The notes under the pieces: generated by a model
The model's database searches: none
Seen by the model: the letters and a program-made list of their open reading frames with translations, nothing else
Told to the model about the DNA's origin: nothing
DNA from: Thozetella sp. PMI_491
Lineage: Eukaryota > Ascomycota > Sordariomycetes > Chaetosphaeriales > Chaetosphaeriaceae
Length of the DNA stretch: 64,000 nucleotides
Assembly (NCBI GenBank): GCA_021432635.1
Contig: MU270034.1
Coordinates: 310,001 to 374,000, forward strand
Direction: 5' to 3'
Translations under genes and position numbers: made by a program
In this document: positions 2,827 through 25,477 of the stretch, in pieces
How positions within the stretch are numbered: position 1 is the stretch's first letter
How the letters are laid out: each line of letters starts with the position of its first letter

Positions 2827-3001
2827 CATCTTTATTCAGCATATGAGCTTATTCCAACGCCTTCTCAGTTCAGAGGCACAGTGCAGATGGTTTTCATCAC
2901 GTGCATGAACACAAGGAGCTCCACGGTAACAATGCTTAGGTCAAATACATATAGGTAATACTCTAATAGGTGCGAATTGGGTTTTACCACCCCGTCTAGG
3001 T

Positions 3002-4304: not shown

Positions 4305-4822
4305 AGCTGACCGGCTGACGTGGAGAAGGGTGTGTCGAAACTCGCAATATGGCCGTCCTAAGTTTGTACGCAGCAAACGAAGCGTATGGGACCCCTCTGC
4401 TCTTGGCCAAGTGGCGGGGAGACCTCCGAGGATTAAGCTGACCACAACGAGCGCAGTCAGGCAGTCCTGCCTATTAGTCAGATAAGACTTCACCCGACAT
4501 GGGATGCAGATTCCGAGTGGGAATAGCCCAGCACATCAACCGACTAGAGAGAATGGCCCGTGCATTGGTAACCGCGGATAGTCGACCGAGGGGGTGCCCG
4601 GGCCGGGAGGCTCGGCAAGCTTCCCGCTCTTACCCCGTCCACTTAGACGCCCCCACTCACGAAGCACTTTGCTTTCTTGGGCGGCTCGCCTTGCCTTCTA
4701 ACCGCGTAGACTTGAATCTATAAGGAGCATGCATGGGAAATGAAGGACTGGTTGCCTGTCTGACAAGATTTGTCTACAGACACAAGAGTCACACGGATTT
4801 TGCATACTAGCCGAACAGTAAC
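4305..4822. promoter_or_regulatory. Divergent promoter between ADH-1 and amidohydrolase-1
   Basis: This 518-bp region separates the starts at 4304 (minus) and 4823 (plus). A CCGCGG palindrome (two everted CGG half-sites) lies at 4572-4577, near the middle: about 268 bp from one start and 246 bp from the other. The arrangement would suit shared control by a Zn2Cys6 protein. No other gene is visible. Confidence 0.5.
4572..4577. promoter_or_regulatory. CCGCGG palindrome, candidate Zn2Cys6 site
   Basis: Six-base palindrome of everted CGG triplets inside the ADH-1/amidohydrolase-1 divergent promoter. It is one of eight intergenic copies found by eye, all between 4.5 and 25.2 kb. Confidence 0.4.
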
Positions 4823-5993
4823 ATGGCTGCTGAGAACACGCTCGCCCTCGAGGGCCGCCCCGAGGCCCTCTTTGAACCCGTTGTCAAACAACGCAAGTTG
4901 GCTCGCCTCATCACATTGGAGGAGCATGCAATCACGCCGTTTCCCGTGCCTGCCACCTCGAAGACCTTTGAGACCTTCAATGCCACCTTCCTCAGTGGTC
5001 TCAAGCAGCGTCTCGGGGACATCGAGTTGAGAGTCAAGATTATGGATGCCAACAACATCGGCGCGCAAATCATATCGCTAAACCAGCCGACCGCCCAAGC
5101 ATTTACTGATGTCGAACAAGCGACCGAATTCTGCCAGAAGGCCAACCAATTCGTATATGATAATTACGTCACCAAGTATCCCGGCAGATTCTTCGCTTTT
5201 GCGACGCTGCCTACTCAAAGTGGCAAGGCTGCAGCTGCCGAGCTGGAGCGGTGCGTGAAAGACTACGACGGCTTCGTAGGAGCCATGATCAACGGGTTTA
5301 CCGCAACGACCGACCCAGAAGTGGGACTCTACCTAGACCATCCCCAATTTGATGCGCTGTGGGAGGTCGCGGAGCGACTGCAGAAGCCAATTTTTATCCA
5401 CCCACGCGTTCCTTTGCCATCCAATATCCGGGTTCTAGACGATATCCCTACCTTGCACGGCGCACCATACGGGTTTGCGAGAGAAACGGTGGAGCATATC
5501 TTTAGGATCATGTATACCGGAGTATTTGATCGTTTCCCTGGTCTCAAGATATGCCTCGGTCATATGGGAGAGGGTCTGAGTTGGATCTTGCCAAGGACCG
5601 ATACCACCTTCCGCATGTATAGCGATGGTAAGTGGCGCTCTCCTTCATTGGTTCCAGTCTTCGGATATCGTTATCGTGGCATCGAACGCGGATTCGAGCT
5701 AATTGAAATGGCACACAGAGGCACGGGGCCCTAAGAAGCACTCCTTCTTACATTATTTCCAAGAGAACATCATCACAAATACCAGCGGCATGCCTCGGAC
5801 ATCAGCTCTGATGAATCTCATGGCCGAAGCCAAGGTATCGAATATTATGTTCTCCGTCGACTACCCCTACGAGTCTATTGCGGAGATGCGCGAATGGTTT
5901 GAGTCAGTACCCGTCTCAGACGAGACCTGGAAAGACATCGGATACCGAAACGCAATTAGACTCTTCCAATTGCCGCTAAATTACGACAACTGA
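4823..5993 (+). CDS. Amidohydrolase-2 family, decarboxylase-like, 359 aa (amidohydrolase-1)
   Basis: Exons 4823-5627 and 5719-5993 give 359 residues; the intron has a GTAAGT donor. The protein belongs to the amidohydrolase-2 (ACMSD-like) TIM-barrel family. Metal and catalytic positions seen in 2,3-dihydroxybenzoate and gamma-resorcylate decarboxylases are present: Glu33-Glu34-His35 in TLEEH, His193 in FIHPR, His247 in LGHMGE and Asp316 in FSVDYPYES. These enzymes remove CO2 from hydroxybenzoic acids without a cofactor, or hydrolyse lactones or amides. About 25 extra residues precede the usual start, but no in-frame ATG lies closer to TLEEH. It shares the AAELERCVKD segment with the second copy at 17477 but is clearly diverged. 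Decarboxylation is inferred from family and neighbours. Confidence 0.85.
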
Positions 5994-6051
5994 GAGAAGG
6001 AAGTGGCATTGGCACGTGGCACACAGAAGTATTGCGCGAGCTAGCACGGGC

Positions 6052-8720
6052 TTAAATCGTAAAGGATATTGCATCGAAGAACTGAGAATTCGTTGGTGCG
6101 AAGAGGTTGCCCCAGTCATAATTCGACCCAAGAGAGCCGAGTTCCAAGTCCGCCTGGACGCTGCTCAACAGTTCGGGGTCCATCACAACTGCCAAAGACG
6201 CTTCTTGATCTCGACCTGGGGTGAAGAAAGTATGAGTCAGTCGGGTTAGAGGGACTTGGCTTTAGTGCCTTGCAGGTTGCATTGGCTACGGAAAACATAC
6301 CTGTAGTGGATGCGAATTGTATGAACTTTTCCAGATACTTTTGGCATCGCACCGCTATATGCGTACCATTTCCAATCTTGTCCAGGGACCTAAGTGCTTT
6401 CCGCAGACTATCTAGCAAGGTTTGATGCTGGTACTTCGGCAACACGAGCTCGTTTTCTGCTAGTGCAATCATGCCGCCGAACAAGACCAATGCAGAACTG
6501 AAGACTTTTGTTGCTCGGTATTAGTGATGTTACTACATTTCTACCAAGGCTCATGGGGGGGAGAAACGCACTATAATAGATGGTGAACCACCAAGTAGTC
6601 ATCAGATGATGTCGAATCTCGGAAAAGCTGTAGATGATATCAATCATCTCCGCTGCAGCCTCGATGCACACCTCTAAGCTACCCTGGCCGAATCGTCGGA
6701 GAAATGCCCAGTCCGTCGGATCTCCAATTTTGCTTCTATCGTGGTCTAGAAATCGCTCAAGGATCGGCCTATGCAGCAAAATGCGCGCATTCAAGTAGCG
6801 CAAAGTGACGACAGCATTCAACCTCGAGGGGATCGACGCTACGCCGAGCTCAAAGAGCTCGTTCTGAGTGTTGACCTGCAGGTTTGGAGCTAGTCCTAAT
6901 TTCCACATGTCAAGCTTCTTTTCGATTGAAAGAACGCGTAGTATCACGTCCGAGCTGCTCATGGCGGTGGCATCGCATTCCGTGTTGTTTTGATACACCT
7001 GTTCTATAATGTCGCCAAGAATGCGGTACAGTTTTCTAGACTGGTCAGTTGAATTTATCGAACGCACGAAACAGAGACACCTACATGGATTGGGTATAAA
7101 GTACGACGGTAGAACGTTGTATGGAGGATGGTGTGGTCGCCAAAGGCTCGCCACCTTGACCAAAGTCCTCGAATTCAGCATCGAGTGGAAGGTCGAGCTG
7201 GATATTGCTGTTTGGAATGGATAATGGCCGACCATAGGTCATGCTGCACGTCCTGCAGTCCAATCATGAGTACATTCCAGGCATATGTCCCGAGGGGGGC
7301 TTACTTGTCTAGAACAAAGCACATGAGCCATGATCGTTTCCGAATCTCTCGCTCGAGCGGCGTCATAGTACTTAAGCTGCTGCTCGAGTGAACGCCAATC
7401 TGGTATGCAATCTGTACCGTTAGCCTCTGGAGATTCCACGTCTGCGCCGAGCGCTGGGTTCCTTGGACGTATTGCGTCACTAAGAGCATCGCTTGAACTT
7501 TTGGTCGTTTGGTCAGTTCTCGGTACACTCCACTGTAGCAGACGTAGACGTACGCGTTTCAAGATTGGCCGGCCTTCCCTGCATCTTTGATACCATGTGC
7601 AAAGCTCTGTCGAGGAATATGTCGGACTTGGTAGGATTCTCAGATGCTGGATGCCCGGAGCTGTCCCCCAAGGATGTTGCGAATGCCATGATAGTATTGA
7701 GGAGGCAAAGCCACGAGGGTCGGAGAGTCGAGGGACTAGAGAGGTCCATCTCCGCCAAGACCGCAAGGACTGTCCGTCTGTCGATATAAGGAAACATGTA
7801 GCGTCCAAAGTTTGCGAAGAAGGCATCGACAAGCTGATGTATCTCAGGCTTGGGAGGCATCTTATATCGATCGTGCGGCAAATCAAGAAACGGGCCCCGG
7901 CCTTGGGTTCTTGAGAAAGGTTGCCGTGGCGAAGGTGGTCGAGATATACGATCCAATGGCGCTTGGCTTGGGACGGGAGTTCTTGTGAGTTGAGAGGCGG
8001 ATTTGTCGCGCCTGGCTATTGCATTCGCGATGTGTCCAAAGAAAGCCGAATTGGAGGTGGGCCCTTTCAAACCAGTCACGTCAGATGGCGACCCTAAGAA
8101 GATGGGCATCGGGCGCGGGAACTACATACCAAAGTGGCCAGACGCATACTCATCGGAAAACGTGATGGTACCCATTCCGTCCACTGTGTCTTCGTGCAGA
8201 GCAGCGCCCTCTACTGCAGTGCCCTGCTGGCCCAGATCTCGTGTGTGCGTTGCCCCTGCGAAAGGAGGAGCACCGCTTTCTGCATCGTCGAGGCTGTGTC
8301 CCATCGAAGTTAACCGGGTACTCTCCGACGTCGGTGTCGGCGCAGACTGGATCGAGCCTTCGCTCGCGTCTGACCTGCGCGCGATGGTTCGCAAGAGCGT
8401 TTCCATGGCGAGAAGGCGGTCATTGAACTGAGACATGTGGCTGTGACTAGGGAAGACATGACGGTTAGATGGTCATCACGGAAAACTGGGATCGGAATAT
8501 CTGACTCTGGTTCGTCGCCCGATGCGACGGCAACTCGCGCAGGACGCTGATATGTGCAGATGAAATCCATGTCGGCACACGCGCTGCAGGACGGCCTGGC
8601 TCCATTGCATCGAGTCTTGCGTGAGCGACAAGAGTTACAGGCCAAGGAGGTGCGTTGTCTCTTGGAGCGTGGCTCGTCCTCTGCATCGTTGGCGAGGGAA
8701 TGTGAATTATTGGAACTCAT
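6052..8720 (-). CDS. Zn2Cys6 transcription factor with fungal-specific regulatory domain, 728 aa
   Basis: Eight exons (minus): 8720-8506, 8446-8130, 8015-7554, 7497-7305, 7252-7085, 7035-6572, 6504-6301 and 6215-6052. They close in frame to 728 residues. The binuclear zinc cluster is Cys28, 31, 38, 45, 48 and 55 (C-x2-C-x6-C-x6-C-x2-C-x6-C), with the basic RSRKTR loop. A PF04082-type domain follows: NLETLQAMLLVTQYVQ, LDKTCSMTYGRPLSIP and TTWWFTIYY segments run across the introns and confirm most splices. The third intron boundary (8016-8129) and the weak GTCAGA donor of intron 1 are less certain. This is the only zinc-cluster protein in the window and lies within the enzyme island, so it is the best candidate local regulator. 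A perfect ACCCGCGGGT palindrome lies 467 bp upstream of its start. Confidence 0.88.
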
Positions 8721-9757
8721 GGTGCTTCCAGCCCAGGGACACGAAATAAGGTTGGTCTGCAGGGCAGAGAGGCACCTGCAGTCGGAGATTGTTGAATGCT
8801 CGAAACGACAGGCATGGGGCATGCGGAGAAAGCACCGAGAGCTGATGAGAGTATTCGGACCCAGTGGTGCAGGTTATTCACCCCAAGTGGGCCTCGGTCC
8901 TGGCTGGGGGTCGAAGTGTAGCTGGTAGTTTGGGTGGTAAAACCTCGTGCCCTCGGTGGGTGGCATCAGGCTCGCGATCTCAAACTGTCCTGGTACTAGG
9001 CCCAGCCTTAGTCCACTTTCCCCACGCAACAGAAATGCTCCCCAAGTCAGGAGGCACGATGCTAGCGGGATCACTAGACCGGGATTGGTTGGTTCGGCTA
9101 GCATGAGGAGAGCTTCGCTTCAAACTGCGACAAGCCAAAATGCCATGGCGTCTAGACTCAACTAGTACATAGTGGCGCTGGTCATGACCCGCGGGTATAT
9201 CGGAAAGCGAAGGCCCCTGACGGGGCTGGAGTGTGGAGGTCTGGGCAGTGACACCCCTGCTAACTACGATTTGTTGAGCGCGATAAGTCCGAGGAGAGAG
9301 GATCCATTAATTCCGGTACCGACAGCCACTCCACTTTCCCAAGATCAGGCCAGACGTGAGGCCTTCTAGGAAACTGGATGTCTACAACAAAAGCATCACG
9401 TGCAAATAACCTCCCTTGCGCCAAACCGACGTACTCGGCCCATGCCCCCAACGAGGCTCACAAACGCACACAGATGGACGGTCAACCGCAGTCGCAAACG
9501 CATCAAGTTCGGGACGTCAGGCTCATTGACATGCCCAGTGTTGCTAGATCATGGTTCGAGCAAGGATGGCTTGTTAGAACTACCGTATTAGACCTTCATA
9601 ATTGCGACAATCTGCTTCAATTGAACTATTACTAGCTTATTACAACTGTACCATTGATAGCGTTCCGACTTACCGCGTCCCTCGGGGCTCCGGGCCAACC
9701 TTCCCGAGCTTAGTCGTACACGACCAGTACGACAAGTACGACATGGCTCTATGGAGG
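8721..9757. other. 1.04-kb intergenic region: regulator promoter and MFS 3' flank
   Basis: The stretch lies between the start of the Zn2Cys6 regulator and the stop of the MFS gene, both on the minus strand. The open frames here lack codon patterns or homology I recognise. A 10-bp perfect palindrome ACCCGCGGGT is at 9187-9196. Confidence 0.5.
9187..9196. promoter_or_regulatory. ACCCGCGGGT palindrome upstream of the Zn2Cys6 regulator
   Basis: Perfect 10-bp palindrome with the CCGCGG core at 9189-9194. It is a candidate autoregulatory site. Same core as the other island promoters. Confidence 0.4.
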
Positions 9758-11794
9758 CTAGGCCTTCTCCTTTCGCCCCAAGACGTTCCGCTCCATGTGG
9801 ACTGCAGTGTGGTTCGTCATATACTTGCCAGCATCAGCAATGAAAAAAGCCGCAATGAGAGCAAGCACCCCGAAAGGAATTGTTGCATAGAAGACCCTCT
9901 CAAAAGCATATGCATATGCATCTCGACACGCCGCCGCCGTGCTCTCCAAAACTGCAGAGGTAACGTTCGAAATGCCGACAAACGCATCCGGTGCACCTGC
10001 AGCAGAGTTTATAACAGCGGGAATAAGTTTGTCCAGATCGCTGGAAGGAAATCCGTTTGAGAGCGCAGCATCAGCGATGCCCGGCCCCAGCCTGGAGTCG
10101 AGAACCGAACTGAGAATCGCTTGGAAGATGGCATTGCCGACGCTACCACCGAAGCTGCGGAAGGCGCCGAGAAGACCGACTGCGAGGCCCATATCGGAAT
10201 ATCGGACGTGGAGACTTGCGTTGACAATGGTGCAGGTGGTGATCCAGTCAAAGCAGCCTTGGCCGAAGAACTGAAATGCCATCCAGGCACCCTTATGACC
10301 ATGAAGCGCGTATACATATAGCCCAGTGAAGAGCGTCATGAGGAAGGTAGCGAGGACTATGAAGAACTTGGGCGCTTTTGACAGATGGAGAAGGGCGGGA
10401 ATGACTGTAGAACCAAAGAATTGGCCCATGCTATTGGGAAGTAGAATGATGCCGAGCTCTACCGTGTCGTTGGTGAAGAGGAAAAGAGTCGCCTGCGGTA
10501 GAAGTGCAATACAGGGGTAGTACACCATGCCGGCAACAAAAGAAACAATGAGTAGAACGGTGAATTCGCGGAACTTGCGGAACAGGTGGAGGGGAAAGAA
10601 AGCTTTCGAGTCATCGACCAGCATGAACTCATAGGCGAAGCAGGCGATGAGCGTGGCAATTCCGATAACAAGGGGTGCAATGACGGAGGCACTGTTCCAT
10701 GCATGGCCATCTGTACCTCCCCAGGCAAGCCCAAGGAGGAAGAGCACAAGACCAGCAGTGTAAAGAGCGATTCCGAGGAAGTCGAGCTGTTTAAATGCCT
10801 CCCATCGACTTGTCGAGCCGCTCTTCAGACCCTTGGAGGGGGGAAAGTAGAACAAAGCCGTGCCGATCAGGCTTATCGCAGCGTATATAATAGCGATGTA
10901 GTAGATCCAACGCCAGCTGGCGTGCTCGTTTAGTAGATTTGACAGAAGTGCTGCCGCGGCACCCCAGGGCACGAAGAGGCAGAATTCAACCCACGCGAGA
11001 CCGACGCCGCTAATAAAGGAGGAGAATGTCAGTCTGACCTCGACTTAAATCCACTCGACAAAAAAGAAACATGCGACATACCGGTATTTGTAGGGACAAA
11101 GCTCCGGCACGGCGGTGAAAATCACAAGAATGAGCCCAACGGAGAGACCTAGGACAGTAGAACCAGCTACAAGAGCAGGCACCGAGGGGGATGTGGCTGC
11201 CACAATCTGCATTTGGGCGCGTCAGCGGAGGAGATTCGGGCGCAATGAGTTGGGGCACAACGTACAGCACCAACCACGGCAAGGACTTCTCCAAGAAGAA
11301 TCACATAGCGGCGGCCAAAGATGTCACTCAGCCTTCCTGCAATAGCAAAAGAGACGGAAGATGCGATCCCCCAGCCAGATATGACCCAGGTAATATCGTT
11401 ACCGCTGCCGCCTAGGGTGGCATTCACCGGCGTAAGAATGGGCCCAATCAGAAGCTGACCACAAGTGATAGGGCAGACAATCGCAAGGCCGAGGAACTTA
11501 GGGGTTGAATTAGTGAGAAAGTGAGAAAGTCATTAGGAAGATTGACTGAAGACATACGAATATGGCAATATATGTAGATATGCCGATCCCACTATGAGGC
11601 CCGGTGTCTTCTCGAAAGGCCGCGACATGGGGATCGTCCTCCTCTTCCAAAGCTTGCAGGCCCGACTTGTCGTGGTCGGCAGAATCGCCCTCAAAGTGCC
11701 GCGCGGATATGTCGTTGCCTTCTGGCACATGTTTGGGGCCGTGAGCAGAGACCTTTGTCTCGCCACTCACGCCGTCGTGTAGGTCTGTACTCAT
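9758..11794 (-). CDS. MFS transporter, TRI12/siderophore-type, 614 aa
   Basis: Exons (minus) 11794-11558, 11496-11266, 11206-11082 and 11009-9758 give 614 residues with many hydrophobic segments, consistent with a 14-TM drug:H+ antiporter. Motif A appears as GRLSDIFGRRYV. The ASWRWIYYIAIIYAAISL and HGHKGAWMAFQFFGQG regions resemble TRI12 (PF06609) and siderophore carriers. The acidic N-terminal ~75 residues (EEEDDPHVAAF) are probably cytosolic. The protein should move a small organic molecule across the plasma or vacuolar membrane. Two CCGCGG sites lie 249 and 570 bp upstream. Direction and substrate are unknown; efflux of pathway compounds is an inference. Confidence 0.9.
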
Positions 11795-12457
11795 AATGCT
11801 AGGTCCCTCTGCTCCGGCAGGCCTGGTGATGTGCTGGACACTTTAGAACTGCTCAGATGGCTGAGATTGTTGCAAGCGGTCCCCAAAATGTGGGAATGTT
11901 AGTTTCTTATACAAGTCCATAAACACTGCCCAGTCATTCAGACACACGGGCTCCAAGTCAGCCGAGATTAATTACTCGGTGTGAACTGTCATGCGGAGAC
12001 AGTTGGGGACTAGAGAATGTCCCCGGAGAGGAAACCTGGGGTCCGCGGGGAAAGGTTGGGGAAGCAAACCGCACCCCGAGATACCCGCGATGTACTAAAG
12101 CAAGGCCCCTCGCCCGTACCATGCCCTGGTAGGTAAGGAACAGAACCGTGCGTTCAGTTTGACACTTTTCACAATGCAGCCCACTTCTCCACATACGCAT
12201 TCTTAACCATCCCCGAGTTCAGGCTAGTGGCGCGGAGCCGGAGCCCCAAAGGCCAGGCACGCTTATCAATCTCGACGCCAGTGTTACCGAAGACCACTAC
12301 TGCCTTGGCCAGGCCTCCAGGAACTATGTAGCGTATGATGACATTACAACACAACTTCTAATGCCGCGGACCAAAATAAAGGGGTTTCTTCTGGGCGTAC
12401 ATTCACGTCTCAAAGTAAAAGGTATGAGGACTAATAGTAAATTTCTCTCTACGGAAT
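11795..12457. promoter_or_regulatory. MFS promoter region with two CCGCGG sites
   Basis: 663 bp upstream of the MFS gene and downstream of ALDH-1 (3' end at 12458). CCGCGG cores are at 12043-12048 and 12364-12369. Nothing coding was recognised. Confidence 0.45.
12043..12048. promoter_or_regulatory. CCGCGG site upstream of the MFS gene
   Basis: CCGCGG core in the context GTCCGCGGGG, 249 bp upstream of the MFS start. A second copy lies at 12364-12369. Confidence 0.35.
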
Positions 12458-14146
12458 CTATATGTATGTCTGGGGCTGCTTCATATTAATCGTGATGGTT
12501 TTCAACGTCAAGTACTCTTCAAAACCCCAGTGAGCATTGCTGCGTCCCCATCCACTCGCCTTTTCACCCCCTACCGGAAGAGTTGCTAGAAAGGTGATGA
12601 AGAGTCAGTAAAGGGGAGGTATTTTCGCTTCTGAAGACTTTGGTAGAGAGGTCTTGAGAAGAAAAGAGAAAAACTCCGGCGTACCTTCGTCGTATTCTGT
12701 CAAGTTATTGATGTGGACCTGCCCAACTTCCAAAGCACGCGCAATTTCAATACCTCGTTCCATGTTAGTCGTATGGATTGCGGCATTGAGCCCATAAGCA
12801 GAGGCATTGGTCATGTCGATGGCAGCTTTGTCGTCCTTGAAGATGTACAAGGATGCCGAGGGGCCAAAGGTCTCCTCGTCGAAGATTTGCATATCCGGTG
12901 TTACAGAGGTGAGGATGGTCGGCACAAGACTGAGCGAGTCGTCTTGAAGATCTAATTTTCCGATCAAGAATTCGGCACCCTTCTGATGTGCTTCGACAAT
13001 CCTGGAGTTAGCAGTCTGCGCCATTCGAAGGTTTACTGCGTAGCCAGCTGAGCTAAATTCTGCCGCTTTCCCCTTGAGGACCTCGATAAATTTCGGTGCA
13101 ATGCTCTCCTGTACCAAAATACGCTCGGTAGAGAAGCATATCTGACCGTGGTGCAGGAACGCTGAGAATTATCATGTCAGCACCGCCGTCAGGCCACGGA
13201 TAGAATCGATTTTCTTACCTCCCATGAGACACAAGTGTGCTGCTTGTTCCAGTCGTGCGTCGTCAAGCACGATGGCCGCAGACTTGCCACCGAGCTCCAT
13301 GAATATGGGTTTCGTGTACTTGGCAGCCACCTGTCCAATGATGTTCCCCACGGCTCTGCTCCCGATAAACTCGATCTTGCGGATCGAGGGATGAGCAATT
13401 AGTGCCTCTGTGACGGCAGGTGAGTCTTCTCGTCTTGCCTGGATGACATTCAAGACTCCCTTCGGGAGGCCCGCCTCGGTCCACGCCTGAGCCAGGAAGT
13501 GGTGGGTGCGTGGGCAAAGCTCGGAAGCTTTGAACACGACCGTGCAGCCCATTGCGATGGGGGCGGTGATGGCCCGGGAAGCCAGAATTACTGCCGCATT
13601 CCATCTAGATTTAAATGCATGAGTCCGACCGTGGTTGACGACAAAAAGCATTAGCGATAGACAAAATACTCACGGTGCAATCGTTAGTATGGGACCGATT
13701 GGCTCCTTGAAAACCAAGGCCATATGTTCCGGATTCGCCATCTGCGGGATCTGGCCCGACACTGAAGTGATGCGAGATGCAAATTCGCGAATGGTTTCAA
13801 TGGCCAGATTCACGTTCATCTCGGCCCACTCTTTCGTGCAGCTCGTTTCATCCATTTGGATTTGCTTCAACTCTTCTTTGCCCTGGGTCAAAATCGTTGC
13901 CACACGGAGGAGCATGTCGCGGCGCTGGATTGGGCCTTCTTTTCTCCAGGTCTGGAAGGCCGCCCATGCCGCATCGGCTGCCTTTTTCGCTGCGTCGACA
14001 TCCGCACCTTGCGCCAGATACACATCTTGGCCCTTCGCGGCACTGTGAACCGGGAAAGTTTGAGCTGGCGAAGCCGTCGCACTTGCTCCGTCGATCCACA
14101 GCGGCACGACCTCCAGCTTGGATGTCGGGTCAATCTCGAGAGCCAT
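12458..14146 (-). CDS. Aldehyde dehydrogenase, 487 aa (ALDH-1)
   Basis: Exons (minus) 14146-13674, 13604-13219, 13161-12685 and 12585-12458 give 487 residues. The ALDH fold is complete: TIAPWNAAV (substrate channel Asn), general-base Glu261 in FMELGGKSAAIV and nucleophile Cys295 in HHGQICFST. The C-terminal exon supplies the conserved LPVGGEKASGWGRSN stretch. The small last exon is easily missed because the frame upstream reads on past the donor. The enzyme should oxidise an aldehyde to an acid with NAD(P)+. The short AMALVFKEPIGP-type region resembles salicylaldehyde/vanillin dehydrogenase-like ALDHs, but this is only a similarity by eye. It is divergent from ALDH-2 over 657 bp. Confidence 0.93.
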
Positions 14147-14803
14147 GATGAGCGCTGTGATCGGTATTCTGCACTAAGTTCAACGTAATTACAAAGGTGA
14201 TATGCTAGATGTCGTTGTCCACACTGACGATACGAAGCGAAGTGAAGCCATTTTGCAGTAATTAACGGCTGGCACAGTCCACGCCGAACTGGCGGTGCCA
14301 CCACGCGGGTATTTCGGCTCGGGGATATCTACTCGGCCCGGGAGCGCCTCTTTGTCGTGGACACGTCTGTTAATCAGCAGTGGAGCTGCAGCCCACAAAG
14401 ACATTTGGCGTGGCGTGTTTTAACACTTGGTGCTAAGGAATCTAGCTAAAAAGTGTTAGGCTTGCTAATTTCGAGTAGCCGGTTCTGGTAAATCCGAATA
14501 CCCCGGTCGAAGCGGGATTGTTCGAACCCTATTGCTAGTTTCCTGGGCCTTGGAGGCACCCATTAGATGCGCACTACGTTGGACGCGTTCGGGCCGCAGA
14601 ATCGTTCCGCGGAAGGATCGGGAGAGGCAAGTTTCATGAATAACTTCGACATATTCAGTTGCACGTTAAATCCATGCCGGGGCAGCAGCTTCGTTTCGCC
14701 CTAGGATTCGTCAAAAGTATTTGCTACCTCAAATTCGAGTCGCTACCTATTCATCCCCAACGAGCCCGAAATAACTAGCGCTTGTATTACCGCACCGTCA
14801 AAA
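14147..14803. promoter_or_regulatory. Divergent promoter between the two aldehyde dehydrogenases
   Basis: 657 bp between starts at 14146 (minus) and 14804 (plus). It contains the perfect palindrome TTCCGCGGAA at 14605-14614, which is 461 bp from one start and 192 bp from the other. No coding segment was recognised. Confidence 0.5.
14605..14614. promoter_or_regulatory. TTCCGCGGAA palindrome
   Basis: Perfect 10-bp palindrome with the CCGCGG core shared by other island promoters, inside the ALDH-1/ALDH-2 divergent region. Confidence 0.42.
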
Positions 14804-16735: not shown

Positions 16736-17476
16736 TTAGACTTGATAGGAAGCTAGAGCAAGATAGACCATCCCGGGCCTGAATTCGCCGCCTCATATTA
16801 ATTTACGAGATCCTTACTGAGGCACCTACGAGAACCTTATCTTACGTGATCTTGATTGTGTTGTACAAATATACTTGAAGAGCCTAGAAGAAACAACTAG
16901 ATTACAACTTTTATCTTAATGCATACCTGATGAATTTGCCGGGAGGACTGGTACATTCACATGGCATCCGATCGAAATGCGGAGCTCAGGTGCGCTCCGC
17001 TCCCGCGGTCAGACTTTTGTGGCCCAAAGCTAGCTCACCCCAGACTTAAGGTGGACCTAGTGGAGATCAACTCCCTCGCTAACCCTTAGGCCAAGACGAG
17101 GCTAGACAGGGCACGGGGGTATATCGGCTCTTGCCCGCGTGGAGTTACGGAGCGCGAGGCGCGAGGAACCCACAGCGACCCCAAATTGAAGGGCATCCGG
17201 ATGTTGGGGTAGTCGCTGCGGAGGAGGCATTGCGGGGGAAGCGTACCAACATGCCGGGATACCAACCTCTTCTCTGCTCTATGAAATAGCTACCTTTGGG
17301 TACCTAGGGCAAGCATTGGAATCTATCGTAGGTATTACAAGAGTCTCAGCCTAATAACATCTCAAAATCTGCCAATTTTCTCCCTCGACTTGCCTCTTCC
17401 GGCCGGATAGCCAGAAGTCCCCTGTCAGTCCCGCCAACTCGTCGTCTTCTCGAAGAAGCAACATACCGCCGCAGCC
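16736..17476. promoter_or_regulatory. Intergenic region upstream of amidohydrolase-2
   Basis: 741 bp between the stop of ALDH-2 and the start at 17477. A CCGCGG core is at 17003-17008. The first ~190 bp are AT-rich and probably hold the ALDH-2 3' untranslated region. No gene was seen. Confidence 0.45.
17003..17008. promoter_or_regulatory. CCGCGG site upstream of amidohydrolase-2
   Basis: Core in CTCCCGCGGTCA context, about 470 bp before the start at 17477. Confidence 0.35.
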
Positions 17477-18448
17477 ATGATCCCATCAATCACGCTCGAG
17501 GAGCATTACATCTCGGAGGCAGTCCAGTCGTCCGTCTCCGTAACCAAACTCGCGCTGGACAAGCATCCTCCTGCCGTTCGCGACAATATTACCGAGCTAG
17601 GCGCCAAACGCATCGCGCACATGGATGAAGCCGGCGTCGCGCTACAGGTTATCTCCCACGTACCCGCCCTTGAGACACTCGACACATGTCGGAAGTCGAA
17701 TAGCCAGCTTGCCGCCGCCGTATCGGCGTTTCCCACGCGCTTTGCCGGCTTCGCCTTCCTTCCCATGGCGGATCCGGCTGCGGCTGCCGATGAGCTCGAG
17801 CGATGCGTGAAGGATTCAGGCTTCGTGGGCACCTTGATTCCCAATCATGCGGCAGGAGTGTACTACGACGGCGCGGCATACGATGTGTTCTGGGAGCGTG
17901 CGCAACAGCTCGACGTGCCGGTCTATCTCCATCCCTCGCCGCCCTCAGAAACGCTGCGGGACCACTTCCGAGGGAACTATCCCGACGAGGTCGTTCAGCT
18001 GCTGTCAACGCAGGGTTGGGGATGGCACGCGGACGTGGCGCTGCATGTCTTGCGTCTGTACACGTCCGGCCTATTTGACAAATTCCCTCGGCTGAAGCTC
18101 GTGATCGGGCATATGGGCGAGATGCTCCCCTTCATGACGGAGCGCATCGAAGCGCGGTTGACAAATAACTGGGGTTCGAGAGAACGGGGCTGGATGACCG
18201 TGTGGAATGAGAATCTATGGATCACTACGAGTGGGATGTTCACCATGGGGCCATTCGCGTGCTTGATCAGGACGGTAAAGATTGAGCGCATTCTGTATAG
18301 CGTCGACTATCCACTGGAAGACAATATGGATGGGCGGCGCTTCCTGGACGAAGTGCAAAAGAGCGGGTGGCTGACGGAGGAGCAGTTTAAAATGTTTGCG
18401 TATAAGAATGCAGAGGAGCTGCTCAAGGTAAGGTTATCGGATGTATAG
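17477..18448 (+). CDS. Amidohydrolase-2 family, decarboxylase-like, 323 aa (amidohydrolase-2)
   Basis: A single exon of 323 residues, the usual length of fungal 2,3-dihydroxybenzoate decarboxylases. The metal and catalytic set is complete: Glu8 in TLEEH, His152 in YLHPSPP, His212 in IGHMGE and Asp277 in YSVDYPLED. The position of Glu8 close to the N-terminus matches characterised decarboxylases better than the first copy does. The enzyme would act on a hydroxybenzoate-like acid in the cytosol. Context (two ALDHs upstream, ADH-2 downstream, FAD monooxygenase nearby) supports an aromatic substrate. The last few codons after LLKVR could alternatively be spliced, but no better end was seen. Confidence 0.9.
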   Translation: MIPSITLEEHYISEAVQSSVSVTKLALDKHPPAVRDNITELGAKRIAHMDEAGVALQVISHVPALETLDTCRKSNSQLAAAVSAFPTRFAGFAFLPMADPAAAADELERCVKDSGFVGTLIPNHAAGVYYDGAAYDVFWERAQQLDVPVYLHPSPPSETLRDHFRGNYPDEVVQLLSTQGWGWHADVALHVLRLYTSGLFDKFPRLKLVIGHMGEMLPFMTERIEARLTNNWGSRERGWMTVWNENLWITTSGMFTMGPFACLIRTVKIERILYSVDYPLEDNMDGRRFLDEVQKSGWLTEEQFKMFAYKNAEELLKVRLSDV

Positions 18449-18645
18449 AGACATTCGGCATAGCACAATTTACTCTGCTCATATCGGGATAGTACAACAG
18501 AAATACATTGCCTTTGAGCAAGTTGCTACCTCTGAGGGAAAATAATAGGAAGCCGTCACATTTCTCAGCTTTCCCCCTCCCCTTTAATTACTTGTGTCAC
18601 GTTTGCGTAGCTCGAGCAATAACAATGTTAGCTATCATTTCATGC

Positions 18646-20256
18646 CTATTCTGGGATATTTACAACAATTCTACCAGCGACCTTGTTCTGTTCTATCATC
18701 TCCAATACGTCACGTATCCTCTCAAACTCAAAGACTTTGACCATCGACTTAACTTCTCCTCTCGAAGCCATCTCCAGTAACTCTGTCATTTCCTCTTCGG
18801 AGCCCACAGAGGATCCAATAATTCTGATACCCTTTACGATCATCATGAAGGGGCTGATTGGGAGTTCGTCTTTTGCCAAACCTACACATACCAGCGTTCC
18901 TCCATTCCGGAGCACGGATAGAGATTGCTCGTAGCTGGATCGACTGTTAGATAAACAGACAGAGCCATGCACCCCATAACCATCGGTTAGGGTTTTAACG
19001 GCAGTGGGTATCTGGTTATATGTTAGTTGCTGGGTCAAATCGACGATGCCGATAAGCAGCGCCGGGCTATTGATGAACTTACATCGTCGACTAGGAAGTC
19101 CAAGAAACAGGTCGCCCCAAGACTCATACAAAGTGCGCGCTTTTCTTCTCCCCTATTTTGGATTACGTGCCATGTTAGTAGCTGCCGCCGTTCGCAATGA
19201 CAGCGTAAAAATTCAGAGCCCAGCGCAACTCACGTATCAATAGCGATGACTTTGATGCCTTTGCTTGCTGCAATCTGCACTCCTCTGGTAGCAGTTAGTA
19301 TATTAATGCCTACTCTCGCTCCTGTGAAGTGAAACGAACAAGTGCCCGAGTCCTCCTCCGGCTCCCGGCAGCACGAGCCACTGGCCGGGCTTCAGCTTGA
19401 GCTTAGTGATTGCCGAATAAATGGTGATACCCGCTATTTTTTTCAGTGCATATTCTCCATGAAACAGCAGGGTTGTACGAACCACAAAGGAGGGGAGCCG
19501 CCGCGATCGAGTCAAGAGCATCGGGAATAAAGGTCAGGAAATCGGCGGGCGAGACACAATATTCTGTTGTCCTTTCTTAGCTGGCGGCAGTTGCATCATA
19601 TCGAAACCTGGGACCTACGTACGTTGAAAGGTTCCTGGAACGTCCTATTTCTCTCGAGTCAGTGCCCTCTCAACATTGCTAGCCCTCGGTAGGAGGCCAT
19701 GCCAGATTTGAACCTACTCGTCCCGAGTTGTGCTGGTTAGGGCAACAAGTCGCATCTTCGGCGCATATTTCGCAGTTGTTGCAGTAACTGTACAGCCACC
19801 TTCGCACTCGTTAGCCTTGTTTAAGACGAACCTAGCCGAGACCCGCGTGCATACTTGATGCCCACACGCCGATTGAGGAGCTGAGGAGATACATCGGCAC
19901 CGACTGTTGGACCGCGGTACTGATTAGCTCATTTCTAATAGTCCGCAGAAACTAAGAGCTGGAAAGCTTACCGCCGCATATACGGCCAACCCCCTCGTGT
20001 CCAGCAATGTTGGCCGTCATAGGTGTGTGTCCGTTGAGACCGTATACGTCAGAGTGGCTGATCACGGCGTGTCAGGTTTCTGCGTTCTTGTGCAGGTTTA
20101 CAGTCTGACTCACCAGACGCCAGTGCATTCCAGTTTTACCAATACTTCGCCGGCAGATGGTGCTGGAATAGGAATGTCTTGGCGAATGCGGACCGCCTGG
20201 ACAGACCCTGGCTCGTCAATCCAAGCGCCAGTCTGGAGTGTTGGGGGGATAGCCAT
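18646..20256 (-). CDS. Zinc-dependent alcohol dehydrogenase, 347 aa (ADH-2), ten exons
   Basis: Exons (minus): 20256-20114, 20057-19972, 19903-19855, 19799-19718, 19644-19623, 19563-19483, 19433-19340, 19284-19234, 19152-19083 and 19011-18646. All ten close in frame to 347 residues. Landmarks appear only after splicing: TGV|CHSDVYGL (catalytic Cys48), AGHEGVG (His68), RRVGIK|WLYSY, a 22-nt exon coding VPGTFQ, LLC|AGITIYSAI and the NAD turn PGAGGGLGHL|GVQIA. The length matches yeast-type cytosolic ADHs. The structural zinc region YCNNCEICAEDATCC has shortened spacing before its last cysteines. Oxidation of an alcohol or reduction of an aldehyde is expected; the substrate is unknown. A CCGCGG site lies 253 bp upstream of its start. 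Confidence 0.9.
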
Positions 20257-20835
20257 CGCGGTGGAGGCCGAGAACGTTCCTACAAGGGTGTCACAAGTAG
20301 CTATGGGATGACAAACTACAAAAGCCCAACTAAATGGCTGGGAAGAACAAGGTTCATTTTGTATGCTATGGCTTCCTAGGAGCTTCGGCCGGAACACGCG
20401 AACCACAAGCCTTTCCCAGATGCGGAATAAGGACGCACTAGCTGCGTCCGTCAGTCCAGTCCTCAGACCCGCAAGCTCTGGCCTCTAGCCCGGAGATTGC
20501 CGCTAACTCCGCGGGTAAGTTTCGGGAGCGCCGCCGTGGTGAACAATCCGCCAACGCAAACAGAAGCTCTATGGGTATCATCTCATACGGGTCACCCGTA
20601 CAGCGTCCTCCTATTAGCAAGGGTTACATCTTGTTTTCTTTTTACCATTCCTTTCATGCGCGAATTCAATGCATGGAAAAACTCGATGTAGCCAAATATA
20701 ACAACTATGGGCCCTCAAGCAAATTTTCTGTGACTTTGTTGTGCAATTATCAGTGTTCGGTAGGTTACACCGTTATCCCCATACATCCATCAAGGTGAAC
20801 GCTTGTTTCCCGTGGTTTATCTTTAACAGGCCTCC
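20257..20835. promoter_or_regulatory. ADH-2 promoter region and UNC93 3' flank
   Basis: 579 bp between ADH-2 and the UNC93-like gene, both on the minus strand. It carries CCGCGG at 20509-20514 in a CTCCGCGGGT context. No coding segment was recognised. Confidence 0.45.
20509..20514. promoter_or_regulatory. CCGCGG site upstream of ADH-2
   Basis: Core in CTCCGCGGGT context, about 253 bp upstream of the ADH-2 start at 20256 (minus strand). Confidence 0.35.
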
Positions 20836-22399
20836 TTATTTCTCATCTTGCGCATTTCTCTCATTCTCAGTCCCGCTAAGCCCCCTTTCGACCTCATAGA
20901 CAACTGTTAGGTCTTTACCGTGGGACGAATCGGTAACACGAGCAAAGACCACCCAGGCGAGACTTGGCAAGGAGGCGAAGAAGAATGCGACATTCAAGGC
21001 GCAGGCACCATTGTAGTTGAAGTCCATCGCTGAAACCACAAAGCCAAACGTAGAGCCGAGAGAGCCGACCGAGTTGATTAGGCCAGCCAAGAAGGCCATC
21101 TCGCTCACGTTATTGGTGAGCGAGCCGGTCAGCCAAAACATGTAGGTAGTAACTCTAGTAGAGGTTAGCATGCGCCCCCTAAAAAGGAAAGAATAGTAGC
21201 TCTTGATCATACAATGGATCTGATAATCCCCAGAGAACAAAGAGAAAGCACGGTAGCCCGAATCCGTCTTCATCCCAGTCGAAGGTAGGGAGGGTCTTTG
21301 GGTACTGGACTTGCAGAATTTGTCCTAATATCCATGAAGTGCCAGAGGTGATTATAATGACGAAGAAGCCAATTTTGGCCCGCGTTCTGCGACTAAATCT
21401 CTGCCAGTCTAGTACCTGGCCAAAAATCAAAGCACCAAAAAGCCCGGTGAGATAGAACAAGGCTGAAAGAAGAGCGCGGGATCGGACGGTGAAGTAGGCA
21501 AAGTTGAATTGCCATTGATAGGACAAGAACCACTGGGCGTAGAGCATCAAAGGTGTGATGGCCAAGACTGTGGGGTTTCGAAGCAGCTTCCCGAGCAGAG
21601 CGAATTCTTGGGCTAATGAGGGCGACTTGGTAAGAGCAACTTTGCGCCCATCAGTCCGCTGCACCTTTTCGATTGGAGGAAGAGCAAGGGCAAAGGGGAA
21701 TCCGAGTCCCATAATAGTCATGAGGACAATATAAGTCTCCTTAGTGACGGAGCCTCGGTAGTTGCTCTCGACATTTAGAGCAAGCGAGATGATCCCGCCA
21801 ATGGAGGCCCCTAGGTTTTGCATGGCGAATTTTATAGATGCTTTATGACTTATTAGCAGGAGCGGGACGGCTTTAGTAGCGTTGCTGCTCAAAATGGGAA
21901 GCACTCACCAGCAGTACCCTTGCGATGTTCCTCGGTGTAGCCGAGGAAGATGGCGCCGCTTGACACCCACAAGAAGCAGCCTGAAATACCAATGCAGACA
22001 GCTCCGAAAAGCAGTAAGCCAGTTGATCCAAACTGATCAACAACATAGAGGCCAGCGGCATAGGGTACATATCCTAAAGTACCAATCTGCGCACGGTGTA
22101 AGGGGAGTCTATCACTAGGCGTAGGTCATGGGAGCACCTACGAATAATGTCCACTTCGGGGTGATTCGATTGCATATAGCACCAACGAAGAGAGAGCCGA
22201 TGGCGATGACCCCAAAGACAATGGCATTCGCCGCATTGGAAATCTGAGGGCTGGCCCCTCCACCAGCCCCCATTTCGTTCAGGGCTCCAAAGATCCCAGG
22301 ACAGGTAAATGCAGTGCATGCTACCATAAAGGCGGCAAACATGGTCGACCGGTACCACTTCACTGGCTGGGAGGGCAACGTCCCCGAGAGTTCCGACAT
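20836..22399 (-). CDS. UNC93-like MFS membrane protein, 460 aa
   Basis: Exons (minus) 22399-22142, 22086-21909, 21840-21213 and 21154-20836 give 460 residues. The protein is strongly hydrophobic with about 11-12 possible membrane segments. Family marks include CPGIFGALNEMGAGG near residue 35, KWTLF|IGTLGYVPYAAGLY, CFLWVSSGAIFLGYTEE, NLGASIGGIISL and GLSDPL|VTTYMFWLTGSL, as in fungal DUF895/UNC93-like proteins. Several of these marks span introns and support the splices. Its role is not established for fungi; it is usually annotated as a transporter or channel regulator. Its start faces the FAD monooxygenase at 23170, so the two may share control. Confidence 0.87.
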
Positions 22400-23169
22400 G
22401 TTGGCTGCGAGTCAAGACCTGCGTTTGGCCTAAATTCAATGTCCCTGGAGGCTGTGCGTTGGACGACTTTCAAATTCTTGGAAATCTGGAAAGTAGGACA
22501 AGGCAGTGGAAATATCATGGGGATATGGTTTAAACATGGCTCTCGTATATCCGTGCTAGAACCGGCGAGCTGATGAAAACGGCATGCCAAGACCCAGGGA
22601 AAAGGGCCTAGTCAACGACAAATTGCCAGGGCGCGAAGGCGTCAGCAAGACTATATGGAGCGTTTACTATATACTTTGTGGTTCCCAGCTAAAGCAGACG
22701 AGGAGACGGTCTCAACTGGGGATGTCTGGCTTAGGAAGACAGGCCCTAATGTCCGCATAATCACAACTGTTACCACCCATGCTTGGCTGTAGCACGTGTC
22801 TATACGGCTTGTTTCTGTCTCTCGGGGGTAAGGATGAGCAAATATTAGGGGGTCAAAGACGTGCTCAGCAGATATGGGGTATAGTCGCACCTGCCGCTCC
22901 ACATAGACCGCCCGAATATCTAGAAGCTAGACTGGACTCTAACGATATGTACCCCACTATGGTTGCGCGAAATACACTGGCTCGAGATTGCAAATAGAGG
23001 CGACCTATTTCGCAATACTACCCCTGTGCTCTCGGCGACCCCCGAAGGATTATCGTGAGACTCTAGGATTAAGCTCTCGATTGAGGAATAGATAACCGGT
23101 GCTATATTAGGGAATCGGTAAGATAATTTCTACACTGGACAAGAATTTAACGCATCCCGAGAGATCACC
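22400..23169. promoter_or_regulatory. Divergent intergenic region between UNC93-like and FAD monooxygenase
   Basis: 770 bp between divergent starts at 22399 and 23170. No gene was recognised. No CCGCGG core was found here, unlike most other island promoters. Confidence 0.4.
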
Positions 23170-24626
23170 ATGGCCCCCGCAAAGATCAAAGTTGCTATCA
23201 TTGGAGGTGGCCCGGCTGGCCTTGCCGCAGCCATCGAGCTCAGCAAGCGGCCCTTTGTCGATTGGACGCTATACGAAAAGAAGCCGGTGATCAGCGAGAT
23301 CGGGAATGGCCTCACTATCCAGCTCAACACATGGCGGATGCTGACCCTTATGGGAGCGGCCAACAGCATCACGACTGACGACCTTTTCAGGCCTGGAGAC
23401 GAGCACTATGTACAGCATCGGTAAGGTGGCAACTATCGGGGTTTCTGTGATGCAGTCCAGCTAATCATCCCAAAGAAATGGAGAGACTGCTCAGCTTTTA
23501 GCTCAGCAGTTCATGCGGAAAGAGACCCCATCGCATCAGATCCCTTGCAGAGCTCACCGGGCGGTCCTCCAGCACGCGCTATTGAAGAAGGTGGATCAAA
23601 GTAGGATCCAAATTGGACGAAAGCTGCTGAAGATAGTTCGCCAGCCAAACAAGAAGCTTGGGCTACGTTTTGATGGTGGCTTAGTGGATGAAGTGGACTT
23701 GTTAGTAGGCGCCGACGGTATTCGATCCGTATGTCTTCCCATGTTCCGGGCTACTATCGGTACATGCAGGTACATACTAACCGCACCCAAGGTTGTTCGC
23801 AAATTCGCTTTCCCAGAACACAGTATCCGATATACGGGATCTACGGCCTACCGATCAGTCGTTCGAACAAGCGACGCTCTTAAGATCAATGGCCTTCCCA
23901 AAGCCGTCCTCTTCTGGCACGGCGTCGATGGCAAGTGGGTGTATACCTGTCCTTTGGGAGGCAATGACATGGAGGTCACGGCGAAAGTAAAAGAGCTCGG
24001 CGGCGAAGAACGAGTCAGTTGGGGGCGGGAAGCTTCGGTGCAGAAGTTGCGGGAATACTTTCAAGATTTTGCACCGCCTATACGACAACTGCTAGACCTA
24101 GTATCCTCGACCCAGCAGTTTGACTTTTTTGCGGGGCCACATCTCAGCAGCGTGATCCAGCACGGATCTATAGCCTTAATCGGAGATGCATCCCATCCTC
24201 TTTCGGGAGCGTTCGGCGCTGGTGCCGGCTTTGCGCTCGAGGATGCTTATGTTCTCGGCAGCGCTCTTGAGTGGGCAGCCTCTGCGGGCAGGTCATTTGC
24301 TGACGGCCTGAAGCTGTTTGACCAAGTAAGGTCTCCGCACTATTCGGCGCTATACAAAGTCCTGGATGAGTTTGGTTCCGCCGAAGAAAGATTGTCGAAG
24401 ACCCCGCTGCCTCCAGCTGAGGAGATTCAGCAGCGTGTGGCGAGTGTCTGGGATGCAAGACATAACTGGATGTATTACTACCAGGTAAGCCCTTCTTTGT
24501 AAGGTGAGTAAGGCATGCCGCTCGTAGCTAACTCTATGCCTGGGATAGGCCGATGTTGTGCTGCAAGAAGCAATTAAGGAGATAGAGCAAAGGGCAGGAG
24601 TTGGGAGGATAAGAAGTAACCTGTAA
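23170..24626 (+). CDS. FAD-dependent aromatic monooxygenase, salicylate-hydroxylase-like, 424 aa
   Basis: Exons 23170-23420, 23476-23728, 23792-24484 and 24549-24626 close in frame to 424 residues. This is a class A flavoprotein monooxygenase (FAD_binding_3). The FAD fold GxGxxG is AIIGGGPAGLAAAIELSK, the NADPH/FAD loop is GADGIRS, and the second FAD motif is LIGDASHPLSGAFGAGAG. The protein is about the length of salicylate and 6-hydroxynicotinate monooxygenases. It would hydroxylate, possibly with loss of CO2, a hydroxybenzoate-like acid using NAD(P)H and O2. No signal peptide is visible, so it is probably cytosolic. The last exon codes only 25 residues; the join YYYQ|ADVVLQEAI is in phase and typical for the family. 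Confidence 0.92.
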
Positions 24627-25477
24627 ATATTTAATGAAAGGTCTCGTCTGCAGGCCAGGTTTCTTGGCCATAATGCTACTCCTAATTCGATTACTCGCTC
24701 GCAATCGTCGCCACCAGGTTCCAAAGCTAAGATAAGTCTCCTGAACCCATCAAAATTAAGGTCTTGGGCGCTCGGACAAATAAATACTCACTTTTCGATC
24801 AGCGGGGCTACATAGGTACCTAACCACGAGCTAACTAGACAAAGGTGGAAAAGTGGAGTAGCCCGAGGTGATTATTGCGTCCAACGACCAATCACGCCTT
24901 GCGGACATTTAATGTCCAATGCTTTACCTATTTTTGCGAGGTCTGAGGTGCTGTATGTCGAATCAAATAAAAAGAAGCGCCGACAACAGTAAGGAGGCTA
25001 GTACGTATGCACTAATTGCCCCTGGCTGAGCCGGGTTGGCATGCAGACTGCATGCTAGCCCACCCACCGAGGTTGACGCTGTCCATTGAGCTCGCGAATT
25101 CGCTTGGGGCTGCGTGTTCTCCTCTTCTGTGCCGCGGGCCGGCGGGCCATCGCGTCCTCAACCTTCCCAAATCCTCGGTCTGCATATACTTCCAAGACAA
25201 TGCAACGTCATAATTATGTAGTAAAAGGAAGGTTGTGTCGTTCGGATTAGGACTGACAGAAGCCCCGGCCCGATGTCGGCTGCAGGAACCGAGAGGACCA
25301 AGCCCCCCAAAAGGGTACTTAGGTAGCGACCCCGTCTCGGAGTTCTGAAATTCCCGCTGTCCTGTTCGTTCCTTTCCGTTCTTAGGTTTCCGCATTATTA
25401 CTTAGGTAGTTGCTGAAGCCTAGTGTTTAAGAGAAACGAAACATCTCCGGTTCAATAGCCGCTAGGGAACGATCGAG
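24627..25477. promoter_or_regulatory. Intergenic region upstream of the SnoaL-like gene
   Basis: 851 bp with no gene recognised. A CCGCGG core is at 25132-25137, about 340 bp before the start at 25478. A minus-strand open frame at 25012-25395 has no recognisable family and was not called. Confidence 0.4.
25132..25137. promoter_or_regulatory. CCGCGG site upstream of the SnoaL-like gene
   Basis: Core in GCCGCGGGCC context, about 340 bp before the start at 25478. Confidence 0.3.

Follow-up and report, generated by a model that had tools for sequence, protein, structure and literature searches.

Four described regulatory systems come close to the one treated here. TerR is the in-cluster Zn2Cys6 regulator of the terrein cluster of Aspergillus terreus, for which binding was shown (PMC4360782), and CGGNNNTANCGG has been proposed as the site of Hap1 (PMC9491583). 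The yeast proteins Pdr1p and Pdr3p recognize CCGCGG (PMC3091778), and Rss1 of Ustilago maydis is a salicylate-sensing zinc cluster factor whose binding site was not determined (PMC5082525). In this work, a stretch of 64,000 nucleotides of the Thozetella sp. PMI_491 genome (72.3 Mb, 157 contigs) was analyzed, namely positions 310001-374000 of contig MU270034.1 (C20 in our numbering), which is called the window below. Its left part holds an island of genes which, by their families, probably breaks down aromatic compounds. A first-pass annotation of this DNA had proposed a single local regulon defined by the palindrome CCGCGG. One local regulon is very probable and is supported by a cluster-specific word, the asymmetric and longer CGCGGGTATNTCGG, which is its signature; the palindrome is probably not the defining element. 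It is probable on the whole that the island is a pathway-specific, likely autoregulated Zn2Cys6 regulon for aromatic catabolism with CGCGGGTATNTCGG as its element.

The locus fits this kind of system, while no named site was found in full. TerR, which by analogy appears to be a close functional parallel, resembles the present case in being an in-cluster zinc cluster protein, in the CGG direct repeats found in cluster promoters by motif search, in the T favored at the spacer end, and in the cluster genes that have no high-affinity site (PMC4360782). It differs in its 5-bp spacer (TCGGHHWYHCGGH), compared with 6 bp and GTATNT here, and in serving a biosynthetic cluster (PMC4360782), whereas the island is apparently catabolic and its site is predicted from sequence. 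The spacer was 6 bp in all three exact sites rather than that of the TerR-type TCGG-N5-CGG, and the direct N5 repeat fell outside the 12 best of 51 CGG-pair geometries. Hap1 shares the CGG direct repeat with a 6-bp spacer (PMC9491583), and HAP1 gave the nearest solved DNA-binding domain, but CGGNNNTANCGG fitted only one of the four best sites (9192) and the HAP1 match was weak. Rss1 is likewise a Zn2Cys6 factor tied to salicylate, with CGG repeats in target promoters and autoregulation termed conceivable (PMC5082525). As for Pdr1/Pdr3, the CCGCGG core that they recognize (PMC3091778) occurred in eight copies in seven of eight island intergenic regions. Except for the transporters, the island genes appear catabolic, unlike the Pdr1/Pdr3 setting. 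The octamer TCCGCGGA, which we take to be the yeast PDRE octamer, was found at one of the eight sites (14607). Although the kind of system is known, its element was not found in print when the 12-mer cores of the three exact sites were searched on both strands together with topic searches; in the text covered, the only string match to these cores stood in a protein-engineering context.

Results

A long motif in the island promoters

The island intergenic set comprised eight regions (5,871 bp, limits drawn by eye), which were the promoter regions of alcohol dehydrogenase 1 (ADH-1)/amidohydrolase-1 (P1), the regulator (P2), the MFS gene (P3), aldehyde dehydrogenases 1 and 2 (ALDH-1/ALDH-2; P4), amidohydrolase-2 (P5), ADH-2 (P6), the second MFS gene/FAD monooxygenase (P7, 22399-23169) and the SnoaL gene (P8). 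P3 ended at 12500 in the hexamer, expectation-maximization (EM), CGG-geometry, CGG-correction and open reading frame (ORF) overlap counts, and at 12470 in the exhaustive seed test and in the genome-average and reduced-set CCGCGG tests. An alignment of the sites indicated that several have more in common than CCGCGG. In motif discovery on these promoters, as the first-pass annotation had proposed, de novo EM with the eight regions as its only input yielded the longer CGCGGGTATNTCGG, and at widths of 10, 12, 14 and 16 one core was aligned in P2-P5. Four of the eight regions, the regulator's own among them, carried the long motif with at most one mismatch, and these four best sites lay 158-487 bp from start codons. 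The three exact sites read CGG-GTATNT-CGG, preceded by the CG extension at the left of CGCGGGTATNTCGG, so that a CGG-N6-CGG direct repeat was present in three of the four. Two degenerate copies were added with the flexible pattern CGCGGRTAN{1,4}TCGR, which was chosen after the sites at 4573 and 20510 had been seen.

9190-9203, plus strand: CGCGGGTATATCGG, exact long motif, 470 bp from the regulator ATG; overlaps the CCGCGG at 9189
12076-12089, minus strand: CGCGGGTATCTCGG, exact long motif, 296 bp 5' of the MFS gene
14304-14317, plus strand: CGCGGGTATTTCGG, exact long motif between the divergent ALDH-1 and ALDH-2, whose ATGs are 158 and 487 bp away
17114-17127, plus strand: CGGGGGTATATCGG, copy of the long motif differing at one base, 350 bp 5' of amidohydrolase-2
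4573-4585, plus strand: CGCGGATAGTCGA, degenerate copy with shorter spacer in the ADH-1/amidohydrolase-1 divergent promoter; overlaps the CCGCGG at 4572; flexible pattern
20510-20525, plus strand: CGCGGGTAAGTTTCGG, degenerate copy with longer spacer in the ADH-2 promoter; overlaps the CCGCGG at 20509; flexible pattern

The motif was nearly confined to the cluster. Exact CGCGGGTATNTCGG occurred four times in the 72.3 Mb, and three of these copies lay here inside 5.1 kb. The core GGGTATNTCGG had 152 copies in the genome, including four within 8 kb here; in the two full lists of copies, no group of three within 10 kb was found elsewhere, and the sole other pair seen was on contig C128. By a Poisson estimate, about 1e-4 clusters of four GGGTATNTCGG this tight were expected genome-wide. 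The flexible pattern had 75 copies in the genome, with five within 16 kb here.

The sole exact copy outside the island (contig C8, 769565-769578; positions 1501-1514 of locus L035) lay about 500 bp 5' of a small ORF which on visual inspection resembles a cupredoxin, and is probably a chance copy. A dispersed regulon was unsupported, the single outside copy being about the chance level and the reversed controls agreeing.

For the control sets, noncoding (ORF-poor) background was defined as positions outside every stop-to-stop ORF of at least 120 aa. It was drawn from eight 10-kb stretches picked by the authors (80 kb), the 10-kb locus L065, the right half of the window, and 55 loci of 3 kb retrieved by CGG-rich patterns with the central 60 bases masked. 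Loci that contained island copies or overlapped L065 (L035-L038) were omitted, as were the duplicates L045, L046, L050, L053 and L055. L002 and L062, which share about 2.2 kb, were both retained in the hexamer, EM and CGG-geometry backgrounds, and 2 of 173 control pieces with common 30-mers were removed in the exhaustive seed test. The density of CCGCGG was 1 in 17.9 kb in the picked stretches versus 23 in 69 kb in the 3-kb loci (centers unmasked); the pooled background is thus not the most favorable choice, because the picked stretches alone have far fewer copies.

At width 14, the EM score of 45.15 was higher than those of all 30 Markov sets (best 39.0) and all 30 real noncoding sets (best 42.8). 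In the exhaustive seed test, the promoters scored 54.3 while non-overlapping control sets averaged 48.4 (standard deviation 0.83), a difference of about seven standard deviations, and none of the 89 control sets completed out of 400 planned reached the promoter score. With 9190 and 12089 alone used to define the word, 0.0048 matches differing by no more than one base were expected in the remaining six promoters (4,130 bp), and two were found (P 1.1e-5).

Several results weigh against a regulon element of this form. In a larger EM run (374 control sets of 400 planned), 45.15 was attained by 9 of the 374 sets and the highest observed score of the run by 11; control segments could overlap each other there, which may inflate control scores. 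Re-seeded EM on the real promoters scored only 40.2-44.4. Compared with reversed controls, no genome-wide enrichment was seen for GGGTATNTCGG (152 vs 118) or for the long word with at most one mismatch (84 vs 90), and the flexible form was rarer (75 vs 143). The strict pattern had no good copy in P1, P6, P7 or P8, the best matches having three or four mismatches in P6-P8 and none being found in P1, and at 17114 the first CGG at spacing 6 is missing, GGG standing in its place. Direct CGG-N6-CGG alone was mildly enriched (8 vs 2.3, P 2.7e-3; 0.03 after CGG correction) and ranked beneath zero-spaced everted CGG and direct N11. The genome counts of CGCGGGTATNTCGG are partly circular because the motif was read off sites already viewed, and the cross-check with the fixed word reduces but does not remove this, because 9190 and 12089 were picked as the best pair. 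Finally, the lead of HAP1 (E 3e-6) as the nearest solved structure to the regulator's DNA-binding domain was small and is a weak one, because PUT3 (8.5e-6) and PPR1 (1.7e-5) follow closely. With these points included, the long motif can be regarded as real with good, though not complete, confidence.

CCGCGG in the island and in the genome

The eight intergenic CCGCGG of the first-pass annotation (4572, 9189, 12043, 12364, 14607, 17003, 20509 and 25132) were all exactly placed, and both 10-bp palindromes, ACCCGCGGGT (9187-9196) and TTCCGCGGAA (14605-14614), exist as described, while no arm past the hexamer was present at the other six sites. The copies besides those at 4572, 9189 and 20509 were as follows, none with an assigned strand.

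12043-12048: CCGCGG in the MFS promoter; sequence match
12364-12369: CCGCGG in the gap that separates the 5' end of the MFS gene from the 3' end of ALDH-1 (limits by eye); sequence match
14605-14614: TTCCGCGGAA, 10-bp palindrome in the ALDH-1/ALDH-2 promoter, with the sole TCCGCGGA octamer among the eight; starts CGCGG-N5-TCGG
17003-17008: CCGCGG in the amidohydrolase-2 promoter; sequence match
25132-25137: CCGCGG 5' of the SnoaL gene; sequence match

To the right of the island, the copies given at 41218, 47208, 52255 and 54320 were exact, whereas those given at 50568 and 36817 lie at 50567 and 36807. These six had all been assigned to genes; five are located within ORFs of at least 120 aa and one is not. 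The claimed absence from intergenic DNA on this side carries little weight: zero copies in 16 kb is not striking because the same background predicts only about 2.8. The whole window contained 17 copies, with extra left-hand ones at 1980, 10954 and 19912, which are taken to be in genes. Enrichment over the whole window was discarded, since 17 observed against 17.3 expected equals the genome average (19,591 copies, one per 3.7 kb).

Counting against a background model, as had been suggested, bore out an excess in the island promoters, where 8 copies were observed versus 1.07 expected from the ORF-poor background (18 copies in 104 kb). At least one copy was present in seven of the eight regions, with zero in 22399-23169. 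The P value of 1.7e-5 was the lowest among 1,949 hexamers seen and survived correction for the number of words only narrowly (about 0.03), and CCGCGG ranked third when hexamers were ordered by regions hit. With the plain genome average as reference, 1.58 copies were expected (P 2.4e-4). CCGCGG was the sole raised word among the eight G+C-only palindromic hexamers, and its geometry, everted CGG with zero spacing, was the top one of 51 CGG-pair geometries (P 1.1e-5). The CGG content of the island promoters was 1.26 times that of the background, and allowing for it gave P 2.7e-4. Over the entire span 4572-25137, 10 copies were found versus 5.6 expected (P 0.06); therefore the excess resides in the promoters.

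Direct CGG repeats with an 11-bp spacer were also frequent in the intergenic DNA of 4304-25477 (11 vs 2.6, seven of eight regions; P 3.4e-3 after CGG correction). Inverted N8 and everted N9 pairs were raised as well, and all three geometries were weaker after CGG correction.

The two words are partly the same. The CCGCGG at 9189 forms the left edge of the long motif, those at 4572 and 20509 open the degenerate copies, whose spacers are shorter by one base and longer by two, respectively, and the start of the palindrome at 14607 (CGCGG-N5-TCGG) has the outline of the long motif. CGG-N5-TCGG occurred six times in the promoters, where 0.79 were expected, and the long motif accounts for three of these occurrences. 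The copies at 12043, 12364, 17003 and 25132 were isolated. As five CCGCGG sites lie outside the long motif and its degenerate copies and are left unexplained by them, everted CGG may be a second element, read by the same or another factor. Some CCGCGG copies are thus pieces of the longer element, and the others make up a second, possibly accessory signal. The everted geometry assumed in the first-pass annotation might apply to these others, while the stronger word has the look of directly repeated CGG spaced by 6 bp.

Genes of the island

Gene families were determined by Pfam, NCBIfam and PDB comparisons on single exons.

3000-4303 (approximate), minus strand: zinc alcohol dehydrogenase 1 (ADH-1); family search
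4823-5991 (3' end by eye), plus strand: amidohydrolase-1, gamma-resorcylate-decarboxylase-like; family and PDB search
6052-8720 (start 8720; 3' end as in the first-pass annotation), minus strand: Zn2Cys6 regulator with Zn_clus and Fungal_trans
9755-11793 (approximate), minus strand: MFS transporter of TRI12/DHA2 type; family search
12470-14146 (3' end by eye), minus strand: aldehyde dehydrogenase 1; family search
14804-16735 (3' end by eye), plus strand: aldehyde dehydrogenase 2; family search
17477-18448, plus strand: amidohydrolase-2, best PDB match 3nur (unnamed amidohydrolase), then gamma-resorcylate decarboxylase
18640-20258 (approximate), minus strand: zinc alcohol dehydrogenase 2 (ADH-2); family search
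20850-22398, minus strand: second MFS gene, match below the Pfam cut-off
23170-24626 (approximate), plus strand: FAD monooxygenase, salicylate-hydroxylase-like, sharing its promoter region with the second MFS gene
25478-26163 (3' end by eye), plus strand: SnoaL-like protein; family search

The protein of the regulator, spliced by eye, matched PF00172 (E 2.7e-9) and PF04082 (E 5.6e-28), as expected of a fungal Zn2Cys6 regulator. The two amidohydrolases matched gamma-resorcylate decarboxylase at 2.7e-52 and 4.5e-53, compared to 2.2e-10 and 2e-7 for uracil-5-carboxylate decarboxylase. The best matches of the FAD monooxygenase were salicylate monooxygenases, below the NCBIfam whole-protein cut-off. 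The region 5' of the second MFS gene contained zero CCGCGG and zero long-motif matches with fewer than four mismatches. These enzymes fit a pathway in which a benzylic alcohol is oxidized step by step to a hydroxybenzoate, which is then decarboxylated or hydroxylated; both the substrate and the direction are what we infer from the families.

Discussion

In the proposed regulon, the in-cluster Zn2Cys6 protein (6052-8720) would most likely bind CGCGGGTATNTCGG as a dimer, the element being read as CGG-N6-CGG with the spacer GTATNT and a CG extension on the left. The regulon would take in the promoters between about 4.3 and 17.5 kb and probably those up to 20.8 kb as well. The regulator is predicted to activate both ALDHs, the MFS gene and amidohydrolase-2, and may, by way of the copy at 9190, also control itself; such autoregulation is suggested by the position of this copy 470 bp 5' of the regulator. 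ADH-1/amidohydrolase-1 and ADH-2 may join through the degenerate copies. The CCGCGG excess would come partly from the left edge of the element (4572, 9189 and 20509) and partly from further CGG pairs, which could be weaker sites of the same protein. As inducer, an aromatic alcohol, aldehyde or hydroxybenzoate is likely, which the encoded enzymes would oxidize and decarboxylate. This binding-site prediction for a fungal regulon, made from sequence alone, replaces a vague palindrome with a short testable word, which marks one cluster in a 72-Mb genome and points to a likely regulator. The predicted members lie at 4.3-20.8 kb, and the second MFS gene and the FAD monooxygenase are possible non-members.

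It seems unlikely that CCGCGG itself, as everted CGG in the manner of the yeast Pdr1/Pdr3 elements, is what the local Zn2Cys6 protein reads as its regulon element, even though it leads both the hexamers by P and the CGG-pair geometries, covers more promoters than the long motif, is a sequence that Pdr1p and Pdr3p are described to recognize (PMC3091778), and recurs at a paralogous locus. Its 19,591 genome copies and unconserved flanks, with no arm beyond the hexamer at six of eight sites and TCCGCGGA at one, tell against it, and without the three copies lying in long-motif-like words the excess drops to 5 versus 1.0 (P 0.004). The paralogous locus was found by comparing single exon stretches, one from amidohydrolase-1 and one from the regulator, with the genome, where the best candidates reached at most 38% and 36% identity, respectively; among them, contig C47 was the only place with both relatives near each other. 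The regulator paralog there has 27% identity with four stops within the match, and therefore either introns or a broken gene, and its zinc cluster was visible by eye only, Pfam giving none on the frame tested. Within C47:522001-525000 (L074), CCGCGG lies at 784, 1391 and 1397, the last two overlapping in the 14-bp palindrome TCCGCGGCCGCGGA. The approximately 1.96 kb between the two genes thus hold 3 copies versus 0.34 expected (P 0.005; 0.05 when the two overlapping copies are taken as one), and zero long-motif matches with up to three mismatches. C47 lends thin, though independent, support to the view that CCGCGG is an element in this subfamily of regulators. No sister cluster sharing the long motif turned up among the best candidates; the C47 matches with up to three mismatches lie only inside gene frames: one with two mismatches in the amidohydrolase frame, and one with three (L074:2284-2297, minus strand) in the regulator-paralog frame.

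A combination in which one regulator uses two geometries, CGG-N6-CGG with fixed GTATNT as the strong site and zero-spaced everted CGG as an accessory one, is distinctly unlikely; the direct-repeat word would then be newer and private to the cluster, because the everted form is common to the paralogous regulator-amidohydrolase locus. Quite improbable, too, is a pair of factors, with the local regulator reading the long motif and a different, wider-acting one reading CCGCGG. The two words are indeed separate in P3, P4 and P5, from tens to about 300 bp apart, and P8 has CCGCGG without a long-motif match at fewer than three mismatches, but CCGCGG is a frequent word genome-wide, those copies that lie outside the long motif show only a modest excess, and no candidate second factor was identified, none having been sought. 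That chance or base composition produced both patterns from CGG-rich promoters is hardly credible. The raised CGG content, other over-represented CGG-pair spacings such as direct N11, and the borderline larger EM test would fit it, but CCGCGG kept its excess after CGG correction, the long motif exceeded 89 of 89 non-overlapping control sets, and four GGGTATNTCGG within 8 kb were seen nowhere else in the genome. The regulon with CGCGGGTATNTCGG as its element thus remains the reading we favor.

Two neighbors of the island were noted. On the left, the reading frame at 1186-2826 is regulator-like by eye and had no Pfam match for the two exon stretches compared. On the right, a cytosine/purine-type permease and a 2OG-Fe(II) oxygenase are adjacent and divergent at 27408-31433. 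A thymine-salvage reading that would include this pair was set aside because both amidohydrolases fit gamma-resorcylate decarboxylase far better, and the pair could be a small pyrimidine-related unit.

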